From Duganella sp. OV510 (lineage in GTDB: Bacteria > Pseudomonadota > Gammaproteobacteria > Burkholderiales > Burkholderiaceae_D): DNA of 64,000 nt. Every line of letters starts with the position of its first letter. Within the stretch, counting starts at the first letter, position 1. The stretch is taken from positions 372,001-436,000 of the forward strand of contig NZ_FNEQ01000001.1 of NCBI RefSeq assembly GCF_900100205.1, given 5' to 3'. This document shows, piece by piece, positions 15,079 to 52,903 of this stretch. Made by a program: the position numbers and the translations under genes. The notes beneath the pieces are model-generated. The model searched no databases and was not told where the DNA came from. It saw only the letters and a list, made by a program, of their open reading frames with translations.

Positions 15079-15092
15079 TCCGAGTCTTGATC

Positions 15093-15272
15093 GGGAGAGG
15101 GCAAACTCGCGTTGCCGCCGAAGGGGCACTACCCAAAAACTCTCAGGCAAAAGGACCGGTCAAGGGGCCTGCAATATGGCTCAAACTCTGGAGAGAGGTT
15201 GCGGACGCAACCCACCGAAGGGGCGTGCGGAACCTGCTTCCGCTATCTCTCAGGTACCAAGGACAGAGGGGC
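15093..15272 (+). ncRNA. tandem glycine riboswitch (two aptamers)
   Basis: Two glycine aptamers lie in series upstream of gcvT. Aptamer I spans about 15093-15159 (GGGAGAGGG ... CCGAAGGGGC ... CTCTCAGGCAAAAGGACCG). Aptamer II spans about 15186-15272 (CTCTGGAGAGAGG ... CCGAAGGGGC ... CTCTCAGGTACCAAGGACAG). Each has the conserved CCGAAGGGGC and CTCTCAGG core. The class senses glycine and usually turns on the cleavage system. The closing stem of aptamer II pairs CTCTG (15186-15190) with CAGAG (15264-15268). The second strand overlaps the GAGGGG that would serve as the ribosome binding site for an ATG at 15278, which suggests translational control. Confidence 0.93.
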
Positions 15273-15328
15273 GCAACATGCTGGAATCATTGTATTCCCT
15301 GTTAACCTCTTTTCGTTCGGACCGTACC

Positions 15329-48979: not shown

Positions 48980-49504
48980 TTACTTCTTTTTCTTCGGTGC
49001 CAGCACCATGATCATCTGACGGCCTTCCATTTTCGGGAATTGCTCGACCTGGCCATGCGGCTCCAGGTCGGCCTTCAGGCGTTCCAGCATACGGAAACCA
49101 ATATCCTGGTGCGCCATCTCGCGACCACGGAAACGCAGCGTGATCTTGGTCTTGTCACCGTCTTCCAGGAACTTGATCAGGTTACGCAGCTTGATATTGT
49201 AGTCGCCATCATCGGTGCCCGGACGGAATTTGACTTCCTTCACGGCGATGATTTTCTGCTTCAATTTCGCTTCGTGCGCCTTTTTCTGCTCCGAATACTT
49301 GAACTTGCCGTAGTCCATCAGACGGCAGACTGGCGGGACCGCGTTCGGCGCGATCTCGACCAGGTCGACGTTTGCCTCTTCCGCCAGGCGGAAGGCTTCG
49401 GCCAAACTCACGATGCCGAGCGGCTCGTTTTCGACCCCGGATAAGCGCATTTCAGGGGCAGTGATTTCGCCATTGATGCGATGCGACGACTTGTCAGTAG
49501 CTAT
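48980..49504 (-). CDS. infC: translation initiation factor IF-3
   Basis: IF-3 binds the 30S subunit, prevents subunit joining and rejects wrong initiator tRNAs and start codons. The protein is 174 aa when read from the ATA at 49504, which gives (M)[20 protein letters not shown], the N-terminal block conserved in betaproteobacterial IF-3. AAAAGGA lies 6 nt before that ATA. The next ATG (49450) would remove this conserved block. Non-AUG starts are the rule for infC, since IF-3 autoregulates by rejecting them, but ATA is rarer than ATT. It follows thrS by 38 bp. Confidence 0.93.
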
Positions 49505-49542: not shown

Positions 49543-51450
49543 TCAGGCCTTGGTGGCGACGTCTTGTTGCAGTCGCTCTATCAGGGCATCGACGGACATG
49601 ACGCCCAGATCGACATTGCCCCGTGCCCGCACGGCGACGGTGTTGGCATCCCGCTCCTTGTCGCCCACCACGAGGATGTACGGCAGTTTTTGGACGGAAT
49701 GTTCACGTATTTTATAGTTTATTTTCTCATTGCGCAAATCGGTCTGCACACGGAACCCGCTGCGGCGCAGCTTTTCAGCCACTTGCTGCACGTATTCGGC
49801 CTGCGCATCCGAGATATTCAGCACCGAAACCTGCACCGGCGCCAGCCATGCCGGCAGCGCGCCCGCATAGTTTTCGATCAGGATGCCGATGAAGCGCTCC
49901 ATCGAACCGACGATCGCACGGTGCAGCATCACCGGCACCTGGCGGCTGTTGTCGGCCGCCACGTACTCGGCGCCCAGGCGCTCCGGCATGAAGAAGTCGA
50001 CCTGCATGGTGCCGACCTGCCATGGGCGGCCCAGCGAATCCTTCAGGTGGTATTCAATCTTCGGACCGTAGAACGCGCCCTCGCCCGGCAGCTCGGTCCA
50101 ACTCACGCCGCAGGCGCGCAGGCCGGCGCGCAATGCTTCCTCCGCCTCATCCCAGACTTCATCGGTACCGATGCGGTTGTCCGGACGCAGCGCCAGCTTG
50201 ACGTCGATATTATGGAAGTGGAAATCTTTATAGACTTCCATCGCTTGCGTATGGAAAGACACCACTTCCGGCTCGATCTGCTCGTGGGTGCAGAAAATGT
50301 GGCCGTCATCCTGGGTGAAGCCGCGCACGCGCATGATGCCGTGCAGCGCACCCGACGGCTCGTTGCGGTGGCACTGGCCGAACTCGCCGTAACGCAGCGG
50401 CAGGTCGCGGTACGAACGCATATTGCTGTTGAAGATCTGCACGTGGCCCGGGCAATTCATCGGCTTCAACGCGTACGAGCGGTTTTCCGACTCGGTGACA
50501 AACATGTTTTCGCGGTAGTTATCCCAGTGGCCGGTCTTGCCCCACAGGCTGGCGTCCAGAATCTGCGGCGCCTTCACTTCCTGATAGCCGTTGACCTGGT
50601 ACTTGTTGCGCATGTACTGCTCCACCTGCTGCCAGATGGTCCAGCCCTTCGGATGCCAGAACACCAGGCCCGGCGCCTCATCCTGGAAGTGGAAGAAGTC
50701 CAGCTGCTTGCCCAGCTTGCGGTGGTCGCGCTTTTCAGCCTCTTCCAGCATGTGCAGGTACTGCTCCTGGTCTTCTTTTTTCGCCCAGGCGGTGCCGTAG
50801 ACACGTTGCAGCATCTCGTTTTTGCTGTCGCCACGCCAGTAGGCGCCGGCCAGCTTCATCAGCTTGAAGACTTTCAGCTTGCCAGTGGACGGCACGTGCG
50901 GACCACGGCACAGATCGGTGAAATTGCCTTCGCTGTACAGCGACACATCCTGGTCGGCAGGAATCGATGCGATGATCTCGGCCTTGTAGGCTTCGCCGAT
51001 CGATTTGAAGTAGGCCACGGCCTCATCGCGCGGCAGCACCTTGCGGGTGACTGGCTCGTCTTTCTTGGCCAGCTCGGCCATTTTCTTTTCGATGGCGATC
51101 AGATCGTCCGGGGTGAACGGGCGCTTGTACGAGAAGTCGTAGTAGAAGCCGTTTTCGATGACCGGGCCAATGGTCACCTGCGCGTCCGGGAACAGCTCTT
51201 TGACGGCGTAGGCCAGCAAGTGGGCGGTTGAGTGACGGATGACATCCAGGCCTTCCGGATCTTTATCGGTAACGATGGCCAGGTCGACGTTCTTGTCGAT
51301 CAAATAGGAGGTATCGACGACTTTGCCGTCGACCTTGCCAGCCAGCGCGGCCTTGCCCAGGCTGGTAGCAATGCTGGACGCCACTTGTGCAACGGTGACC
51401 GGACCGTCAAATTCACGGGCAGAACCATCAGGAAGGCGAACTGAAATCAT
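49543..51450 (-). CDS. thrS: threonine-tRNA ligase
   Basis: ThrRS charges tRNA-Thr and edits mis-charged Ser-tRNA. The 635-aa protein has an N-terminal TGS domain ([20 protein letters not shown]), the editing domain with [20 protein letters not shown], the catalytic core with the zinc ligand Cys in [10 protein letters not shown] and motif 2/3 blocks [18 protein letters not shown], and a C-terminal anticodon-binding domain. I chose the ATG at 51450 because GGAG lies 6 nt upstream. A leader peptide rich in Thr and a terminator precede it. Confidence 0.97.
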
Positions 51451-51502
51451 TGTGATCTCCATGTCGGCGCGCGGGCCGGATTGAATTTAAAAAATGCGGA
51501 CG

Positions 51503-51529
51503 AAAAAAAACGCGGGCTAGCCGCGTTTT
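51503..51529 (-). terminator. intrinsic terminator/attenuator in the thrS leader
   Basis: AAAACGCGG (51529-51521) pairs with CCGCGTTTT (51515-51507) around CTAGC, with four more T residues. It lies between the Thr-rich leader peptide and thrS, 52 nt before the thrS ATG, so it acts on the transcript that enters thrS. Confidence 0.8.
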
Positions 51530-51569
51530 TCTCTCTTTTTTACAAGCAAAAGAATCCCGTTGACTAGCG

Positions 51570-51605
51570 TCACTCCCAAAGCTTGGTAGTAGTTCGCGGT
51601 GTCAT
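51570..51605 (-). CDS. putative threonine-rich leader peptide of thrS
   Basis: An 11-codon reading frame, MTPRTTTKLWE, ends at TGA (51572-51570). Four of the eleven residues are Thr, three of them consecutive (ACT ACT ACC). It lies 41 nt before an intrinsic terminator that precedes thrS. This is the layout of amino-acid-codon attenuators. The ribosome binding site is weak (AAAGG, 11 nt before ATG) and I could not find a strong antiterminator by eye: only GCTAG (51568-51564) matches the CTAGC loop of the terminator. I therefore call it a candidate. Confidence 0.6.
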   Translation of the reverse strand: MTPRTTTKLWE

Positions 51606-51639
51606 AACCGTGATTGCCTTTCTCGCTCTTACAGATGTC

Positions 51640-51716
51640 TGGTGGGCGGTGAGGAATTCGAATCCCCGACCCCTTGGATGTCGACCAAGTATTCTAACCA
51701 GCTGAACTAACCGCCC
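51640..51716 (-). tRNA. tRNA-Val (anticodon GAC), copy 2
   Basis: A 77-nt cloverleaf: acceptor GGGCGGT/ACCGCCC, D-arm GTTC/GAAT, anticodon stem CTTGG/CCAAG, loop TCGACAT with anticodon GAC (Val, GUC/GUU), variable loop GGGTC, T-arm with TTCGAAT and an encoded CCA end. Position 33 is C instead of the near-universal U. It is identical to the copy 31 nt upstream, with which it is co-transcribed. The next gene downstream is the thrS leader. Confidence 0.9.
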
Positions 51717-51747
51717 GTGGGTACTGCTTAAATTGTACTGCGTAATC

Positions 51748-51824
51748 TGGTGGGCGGTGAGGAATTCGAATCCCCGACCCCTTGGATGTCGACCAAGTAT
51801 TCTAACCAGCTGAACTAACCGCCC
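51748..51824 (-). tRNA. tRNA-Val (anticodon GAC), copy 1
   Basis: The first of two identical 77-nt tRNA genes, with the same anticodon loop TCGACAT (C33, anticodon GAC) and encoded CCA. It directly follows a sigma70-type promoter. Confidence 0.9.
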
Positions 51825-51834
51825 GAAGACCAGC

Positions 51835-51863
51835 ATTATAGAGAGCGATTCGAAGAAAAACAA
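51835..51863 (-). promoter_or_regulatory. promoter of the tRNA-Val operon
   Basis: On the minus strand TTGTTT (51863-51858) and a perfect TATAAT (51840-51835) are 17 bp apart, 10 bp upstream of the first tRNA. Transcripts from here could continue into the thrS leader. Confidence 0.75.
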
Positions 51864-51964
51864 GGGTAATCACGGGAAACATTTCTATTTCTCCTATGGC
51901 GACGTAAAAGCGTGGCGTTTCGGCTTACATTACACTGTCGCTATCCCTACTCAACCACAAACTC

Positions 51965-52903
51965 ATGCAAGCAGAAACCACCGCCACCTCCTCCGCCCAC
52001 CTGCACGAACACCGCGCCGGTGACGCGCACTATAAACACTACACGGCGCAGCGTAGCCAGTCCGTGCTGGCGTGGGCGCTGGTGCTGACGCTGGGCTTCG
52101 CGGTGGTCGAGGTGGTGACTGGCTTCATGTCGAATTCGCTGGCACTGATTTCTGACGCCGGCCACATGGTGACCGACGCTGCCGCGCTTGGCCTGGCGCT
52201 GCTGGCGCAACTGATCGCCAAGCGCCCGCCATCAGCGCGTCACTCATTCGGCTTCGGCCGTGCCGAGGCGCTGGCGGCCTTCGTCAACAGCCTGGTGCTG
52301 CTGTTGCTGGTCGGCTGGATTAGCTACGAGGCTTTGTCACGTTTCTCGCATCCGGAAGAAGTGCATGGCGCCACCGTGTTCATCGTCGCCGCGCTCGGCC
52401 TGCTGATTAATCTGGTGCTGGCCTGGCTGCTGTCGCGCGGCGATAGCAATATGAATACGCGCGCCGCGCTGGTCAACGTGCTGGGCGATTTATTGGGCTC
52501 GGTGGCGGCACTGGTATCGGGCGCGGTGATCTACTACACCGGCTGGATGCAAATCGATCCGCTGCTGTCGCTGTTTGTCGCGCTGCTGATCTTGAAATCC
52601 ACGGTGGGCGTGCTGCGCGAGTCCTACCACTTCCTGATGGGCGGCGTGCCCGAGGACATCAACTACCTCCATGTCGGCGCCGACCTGGAGCGCATTGACG
52701 GTGTCTGCTCAGTGCACGACCTGCACGTGTGGGATATGTCACCCGGACAGCCGGCGCTGATCGGCCACGTCGAAATTGTCGAACTGGAGCGCTGGCCCGA
52801 CATCCTGCACGCCATCAAGGCCATGCTGCTGGAAAAGCATGGCATCGACCACATCACGCTGCAAGCAGAAGTCGCCCCTCAAAGCGATGGCCATCCAGCG
52901 TAA
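51965..52903 (+). CDS. cation diffusion facilitator (zinc-type efflux transporter)
   Basis: A 312-aa membrane protein of the CDF family that exports Zn2+, Co2+ or similar divalent metals by proton antiport. It has six transmembrane segments. The metal-site motif is SLALISDAGHMVTDAAAL (HxxxD in TM2), with a second HxxxD-type pair expected in TM5 (NVLGDLLGSV). A His-rich N-terminus (SAHLHEHRAGDAHYKHY) fits a ZitB/CzcD-like role. The cytoplasmic C-terminal domain has HDLHVWDMSPGQPALIGHVE. The overlapping downstream AraC gene may regulate something else. Confidence 0.92.
   Translation: MQAETTATSSAHLHEHRAGDAHYKHYTAQRSQSVLAWALVLTLGFAVVEVVTGFMSNSLALISDAGHMVTDAAALGLALLAQLIAKRPPSARHSFGFGRAEALAAFVNSLVLLLLVGWISYEALSRFSHPEEVHGATVFIVAALGLLINLVLAWLLSRGDSNMNTRAALVNVLGDLLGSVAALVSGAVIYYTGWMQIDPLLSLFVALLILKSTVGVLRESYHFLMGGVPEDINYLHVGADLERIDGVCSVHDLHVWDMSPGQPALIGHVEIVELERWPDILHAIKAMLLEKHGIDHITLQAEVAPQSDGHPA

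Follow-up and report, generated by a model that had tools for sequence, protein, structure and literature searches.

The trp, his and thr operons of enterobacteria are controlled by ribosome-mediated attenuators, and the E. coli synthetase genes pheST by a leader peptide attenuator. E. coli thrS is the textbook case of translational autoregulation, with neither a leader frame nor a terminator known to take part. The conserved leader that precedes thrS in Duganella sp. OV510 is, judged from sequence comparison, very likely a classic ribosome-mediated transcription attenuator. This reading, proposed in a preliminary description of the locus, is supported by conservation of leader and terminator, by retention of the Thr codons and by an antiterminator that excludes the terminator. 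At the level of sequence, the leader consists of a frame, selection acting on its Thr codons, a terminator, and conserved complementary strands of an antiterminator and of a helix that we call P1. It resembles the enterobacterial trp, his and thr attenuators in having a frame of cognate codons, a putative protector, an antiterminator and a terminator in the same order; it differs from them in sequence, in that it would control an aminoacyl-tRNA synthetase gene, in that it usually follows tRNA-Val, and in that its Shine-Dalgarno sequence lies inside a helix enclosing the whole frame. With pheST it would share the attenuation of a synthetase gene by codons of its own amino acid, which is Phe there and Thr here; the operon position differs, and the likeness is one of description, not of sequence. 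The E. coli thrS operator controls the same gene, but there ThrRS blocks translation.

A Thr leader peptide adjoining thrS on its upstream side has been proposed in Streptomyces lividans: thrL (MKRVRPFLETTPGFVPAR) has two Thr, a leaderless start and, in its authors' view, no clear terminator (PMC8079986). Both are proposed Thr leader peptides at thrS, thrL being actinobacterial, and the two are compared by description, not by alignment. In Rhodobacterales, cysS is preceded by the uORFC-8-2 motif, which has features of ribosome-mediated attenuation (PMC8632094). Its frame likewise contains codons for the synthetase's amino acid, in that case Cys and in Alphaproteobacteria, and the motif is likened to our leader by description, not structure. 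The part of PMC2965389 at hand names E. coli ThrRS as self-regulating and names no proteobacterial thrS attenuator; thrS is absent from the corresponding part of PMC4833913, and that of PMC1262725 reports no conserved structure ahead of threonine operons in Actinobacteria. Among the matches listed in our literature search, no thrS leader in Betaproteobacteria was recognised. The article of Lopatovskaya et al. 2010 (Mol Biol 44:128), whose title announces a survey of how amino acid and aminoacyl-tRNA operons are attenuated, may include one, and a Vibrio fischeri paper is said to include both thrS and a leader peptide. At gathering scores, Rfam yielded no family at the leader and tRNAs only at eight related loci. 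The best sub-threshold score was that of Thr_leader RF00506, which we take to be the threonine operon leader; at 18.8 bits against a gathering score of 55, it leaves our leader outside that family. The T-box model had zero matches at the locus and at related loci.

The window, i.e., the whole stretch of 64,000 nucleotides that was analysed, contains the following features on the minus strand, where the order is tRNA-Val pair, Thr-rich frame, terminator and thrS.

51858..51863, minus strand: putative -35-like TTGTTT, 17 nt 5' of the -10-like element
51835..51840, minus strand: putative -10-like TATAAT, 5' of the tRNA pair, read by eye
51748..51824, minus strand: tRNA-Val(GAC), copy 1 (ARAGORN)
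51640..51716, minus strand: tRNA-Val(GAC), copy 2 (ARAGORN)
51597..51610, minus strand: start-codon hairpin CGGU[UAUGAC]ACCG (RNAalifold, 37 leaders)
51570..51605, minus strand: leader frame MTPRTTTKLWE* (sequence reading; conserved in relatives)
51585..51593, minus strand: putative regulatory Thr codons 5-7, ACT ACT ACC (codon-position entropies)
51503..51530, minus strand: intrinsic terminator, stem 51530-51521 / 51515-51506, U-run to 51503 (sequence; stem pair changes)
49543..51450, minus strand: thrS, threonyl-tRNA synthetase (TIGR00418, 725.8 bits, cut-off 383.65)

The two tRNA-Val genes placed upstream of the leader in the preliminary description were recovered by ARAGORN, both as tRNA-Val(GAC), and are identical across 77 bases. 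The promoter listing for 51400-52000 has zero entries by its own criteria; the TTGTTT element is absent from it because it has only 3/6 consensus bases. The longest thrS frame begins at 51462, and the second ATG, at 51450, is the more likely start. Two further observations concern the surroundings. On the minus strand, infC apparently starts at a rare ATA codon (49502-49504) with AAAGGA 6 nt before it, and the listed ATG frame appears too short; this reading leans on a comparison with E. coli IF3. On the plus strand, a tandem glycine riboswitch with two RF00504 aptamers (61.1 and 46.7 bits) occupies 15082-15276.

The frame MTPRTTTKLWE, announced with four Thr in eleven codons, three of them consecutive, is indeed encoded on the minus strand (ATG ACA CCG CGA ACT ACT ACC AAG CTT TGG GAG TGA), with the ATG at 51605-51603 and the stop codon at 51572-51570. 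The TGA stop appears to reflect a single base change in a longer form, ...ERR*, that relatives have. Of 70 nonredundant thrS-upstream windows, drawn from 188 such windows, 63 contain a putatively translated ATG frame of 8-25 codons, compared to a mean of 21.6 (maximum 32 in 200) in dinucleotide shuffles and to 17 on the opposite strand. The highest Thr count per upstream window averages 2.97, versus 0.96 in the shuffles and 0.71 on the opposite strand; frames with at least 4 Thr were found in 21 upstream windows, versus a shuffle mean of 0.43 (maximum 5) and none on the opposite strand. It should be noted that many of these upstream windows were retrieved by a model containing the leader core, and some by ThrRS alone.

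The cleanest test of the selection for Thr is codon 6 in Oxalobacteraceae. It encodes Thr in 42/45 distinct frames, with base entropies of 0.31, 0.15 and 1.99 bits at its three positions and nearly even use of ACG (12), ACC (11), ACA (10) and ACT (9). Similarly, codon 9 is Thr in 11/12 distinct frames of the Burkholderia group, with a third-base entropy of 1.46. A check of the Thr codons in relatives had been suggested beforehand, and its outcome is that Thr is retained while the synonymous third base is free to vary. Across 56 nonredundant leaders, Thr occupies codon 5 in all 56, partly because the leaders were selected on the core, and accounts for 95/459 residues past codon 5; 14 leaders have 2 Thr, 9 have 3, 21 have 4, 10 have 5, and 2 have 6. 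The 14/56 leaders with just two Thr count against the attenuation model.

These same leaders favour another explanation, namely that ThrRS binds a conserved leader structure and controls termination, as a transcriptional counterpart of the E. coli thrS operator. ThrRS of E. coli autoregulates thrS, and conservation of the core, like that of the start-codon hairpin, extends to the base level, beyond what a leader peptide requires; the hairpin may explain the base-level fixation of codons 2-3. The free synonymous change at the Thr codons, however, favours decoding over the binding of an RNA shape, no anticodon loop resembling that of tRNA-Thr was seen by eye, and Thr-rich frames occur in clades without the core. 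We consider binding by ThrRS very unlikely as the basis of control. The core (at most 6/19 mismatches) is present in 145/165 thrS regions (96/110 retrieved via ThrRS alone, 49/55 via a model match), and the 20 regions lacking it include both diverged Thr frames and places without a visible frame (e.g., L076 and L156). Among the Thr frames without the core are MARRTLTETTSERR (L079, L086), MLRTTTSVVG (L140), MLKTDTTTLMISG (L162) and MSFRTTTTGTLYLG (L168); the last two, along with MFRTTTTTGK and MAVRTTTTHP, are among the Thr-rich frames found at the same place in several diverged clades, where other frames are Thr-poor. As a separate observation, Arg-Thr at leader codons 4-5 (CGA ACT) recurs in otherwise dissimilar leaders such as those beginning MFRT, MSFRT, MNFRT and MAVRT; it is not universal, as seen in MRPPT, MVPPT, MTPLT and MAAQT.

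An intrinsic terminator does lie between the leader frame and thrS, as previously claimed, at a spacing of 39 nt past the stop codon rather than 41. Its sequence is AAAAACGCGG-CTAGC-CCGCGTTTTT (51530-51506), and two of its stem pairs have changes on both sides. The stretch 51506-51530 is nearly symmetric, and a terminator is called there on the plus strand too. The strands that would compete with the terminator or enclose the frame are listed below.

51562..51568, minus strand: antiterminator 5' strand GCUAGUC, segment 2 (RNAalifold, pair counts, swap test)
51516..51522, minus strand: antiterminator 3' strand GGCUAGC, segment 3, formed by the end of the terminator 5' arm and the loop
51561..51572, minus strand: putative protector hairpin UGAC[GCUA]GUCA at the stop codon (37-leader pair counts)
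51612..51626, minus strand: P1 5' strand with the leader Shine-Dalgarno sequence, GCGAGAAAGG.C.AATC (swap test 0/5000)
51542..51556, minus strand: P1 3' strand GAUUCUUUUGCUUGU (folding, swap tests)

In the protector hairpin, 90.5% of cells are paired across 37 leaders, and 2/4 pairs have changed on both sides; together with the terminator stem, it has 10 cells changed on both sides (0/500 shuffles). The antiterminator had been described as a mere 5-bp match (GCTAG with CTAGC). It is longer than that: GCUAGUC pairs with GGCUAGC over 7 bp here, and the pairing reaches 8 bp in relatives. RNAalifold on the alignment of 37 leaders predicted, unprompted, six antiterminator pairs (GCUAGUCG x CGGCUAGC) in place of the terminator, and 93.9% of 295 antiterminator cells are paired, compared to 4.8-48.9% in slid controls. 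Within Oxalobacteraceae, where the form is GCUAGUC(G) x (C)GGCUAGC, the pairing is conserved with zero pairs changed on both sides. Some Massilia carry GCUAGACGCG x CGCGCCUGGU instead, the Burkholderia group has GUCGAGG x CCUCGA, and both GUUCGCGC x GCGCGGAC and GUCGCGC x GCGCGGC occur elsewhere.

When first swap-tested with a narrow strand, the antiterminator gave no significant signal (386/2000, n = 31; 1729/2000 within Oxalobacteraceae, n = 20). With more clades and a wider strand that ran from codon 10 up to the terminator, the leaders' own strands paired better than swapped ones (2/5000, n = 55), and two control strands gave no signal (4583/5000 and 4182/5000). A second set, made up of 27 loci not used in that test, gave the same result (13/5000); 23/27 loci beat shuffled arms, and 4/27 did no better. 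When Oxalobacteraceae and the Burkholderia group are removed, the antiterminator test weakens to 469/5000 (n = 32) and the corresponding P1 test to 78/5000 (n = 32); some of the signal therefore comes from differences between clades. The swap tests ignore phylogeny, so that kinship may inflate them; they exclude L051, which has a long insert, and the second set excludes L194-L196. In this genome, the antiterminator does not stand out by its strength, in that 6/43 other terminators pair with the leader equally well or better. Among 85 leaders, the share of other terminators doing as well has a median of 7% and a maximum of 88%; arms with CGGCTAG or CGGCTGG, the type of the relatives' thrS terminator, were excluded from these controls.

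The antiterminator pairing has a median start of nt 41, counted from the A of AUG; it begins within nt 36-46 in 48/55 leaders (41% of shuffled arms start there), and lies at most 15 nt from the stop codon in 51/55. That it starts beyond nt 28 in 55/55 is meaningless, the tested stretch itself beginning at nt 28. We folded the leaders to the end of the terminator loop, with ribosome footprints of textbook size and any upstream pairing counted. At least 6 nt of the terminator 5' side are predicted to pair upstream in 55/55 leaders with a ribosome at the early Thr codons, in 24/55 with a ribosome at the stop codon and in 34/55 folds with no ribosome; the values for this genome are 9 nt with the ribosome at the early Thr codons versus 0 at the stop. 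In these folds, the segment 2 strand is free when the ribosome is at the early Thr codons and mostly covered when it is at the stop. The predicted antiterminator and the terminator exclude each other. Segment 1:2 pairs are conserved, covariation being absent by swap test (945/5000), and the Thr-codon strand has no covariation either (2424/5000). The lack of a 1:2 signal, the mixed ribosome-free folds, the non-significant first swap test, the absence of antiterminator covariation inside Oxalobacteraceae and the ordinary rank of the pairing in this genome all count against the attenuator reading. CGCGAAC is complementary to GUUCGCG past the stop codon in several clades, with a pairing test that is not significant.

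The ribosome binding site had been called weak. A Shine-Dalgarno sequence was found, the likely ribosome site AGAAAGG (51623-51617, 11 nt before the leader ATG), and it proved to be part of one strand of the conserved helix P1, which pairs the Shine-Dalgarno strand with a strand past the stop codon. For most of 29 leaders, RNAfold predicts one long imperfect hairpin, with UGAC:GUCG, GCG:CGC and a hairpin across the Thr codons inside P1. Swap tests of P1 gave 0/2000 (n = 31) and, for Oxalobacteraceae, 1/2000 (n = 20); in the larger set, the own strands again exceeded swapped ones (0/5000, n = 55). A link of this kind between the Shine-Dalgarno strand and the strand past the stop, as well as the retention of Arg-Thr across many otherwise dissimilar frames, would suit a leader that acts on translation, P1 hiding the leader ribosome site and the frame serving as a general translation sensor. 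We find this barely credible, given that a terminator with a U-run and a matching antiterminator strand precede thrS and that the thrS ribosome site lies outside the structure.

The distribution of the attenuator candidate was examined with a genus set of 74 genomes, by ThrRS search, and with 80 named loci obtained via ThrRS alone. Covariance model R1 is based on alignment A1, i.e., 37 leaders from Oxalobacteraceae with one Cupriavidus among them; R2, a wider model, is based on 54 loci, L103 excluded. Of the 66 leader references, A1 draws on 37 and A2 on 15. The best R1 match adjoins thrS in 72/74 genus genomes including the window's own (71/73 relatives), coordinates of the 72 matches relative to thrS having been compared by eye. 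The genomes without a match are G056, which is 60% complete with thrS at a contig end, and G008, one contig called complete, with no full thrS match; because G008 lacks a pheS match as well, the thrS stretch is taken as missing from the sequence data used. The suggested check in relatives thus found leader and terminator conserved upstream of thrS.

Order-wide, R1 matched 64/300 genomes and R2 96/300. R1 matches outside the family with E of at most 1e-5 are at thrS in 32/32 cases and span eight other families (f8, f20, f21, f30, f33, f37, f45, f48). Among 100 matched regions retrieved, 84 contain thrS (55/60, a count excluding L170 with its 29% match, and 29/40); the 5 inspected of the 16 regions without thrS are centred on a terminator only, and bare terminators are more frequent among the weaker matches. 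The R1 search gave 66 match rows, with G000, G282 and G144 left out of the retrieved regions and G317, G169 and G175, absent from the first retrieval, added later; from the R2 search, G091, G151 and some second matches were left out. Class-wide, 13/232 genomes matched, 3 of them within the order (G000, G121, G163) and 10 outside it, the latter with at most 38.3 bits and E of 4.1e-6 or worse. Since the matches beyond the order are only weak, the leader family seems to be confined to this order, which in GTDB holds the Betaproteobacteria. Searches spanning more than 40 genomes used stricter filters, by which weak matches were lost. The plasmid search for the leader gave zero matches.

In the thrS regions, with 600-700 nt upstream examined, tRNA-Val(gac) is present in 129/165; for the 116 leaders with this tRNA, the median distance from its 3' end to the leader ATG is 45 nt. 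The terminator could therefore be taken merely to end the tRNA-Val transcript, the frame being incidental and thrS having its own promoter. Several genomes (L102, L156, L194-L196) fit this explanation, with tRNA-Val, terminator and thrS and no visible leader; in these, the terminator may predate the switch, or the leader may have been lost. Conversely, 29/145 leaders have no tRNA in the stretch examined, the Thr codons are under selection, and the complementary strands of two pairings are kept; a simple tRNA terminator is a very unlikely explanation. The empty promoter listing between tRNA and thrS is a weak argument against a separate thrS promoter, since the listing misses the tRNA promoter as well.

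Co-transcription, stalling and switching, like a response to threonine, are what we infer from these parts under the attenuator reading. A transcript would probably run from the tRNA-Val promoter through both tRNAs into the leader. With ample Thr-tRNA, the ribosome would translate as far as the stop codon and mask segment 2 (GCUAGUC), which would allow the terminator to form and stop transcription. With scarce Thr-tRNA, stalling of the ribosome at Thr codons 5-7 would leave segment 2 free to pair with GGCUAGC (terminator 5' arm and loop), and the polymerase would continue into thrS. P1 would re-close the leader once it is free of ribosomes.

A broader scenario strikes us as possible, albeit rather doubtful: a thrS attenuator family across much of Betaproteobacteria, derived from the tRNA-Val terminator, in which tRNA-Val supply and Thr charging share one transcript and P1 buries the leader ribosome site, so that about one ribosome samples each transcript before closure. 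A broad bacterial group appears to control thrS, the gene that is translationally autoregulated in E. coli, through the decoding of Thr codons ahead of a terminator. The leaders offer many natural variants of one switch, in which antiterminators differ by clade together with their terminators, so that rules of attenuation could be tested by swapping parts. They also suggest a route by which a plain tRNA terminator may have become a regulatory element.
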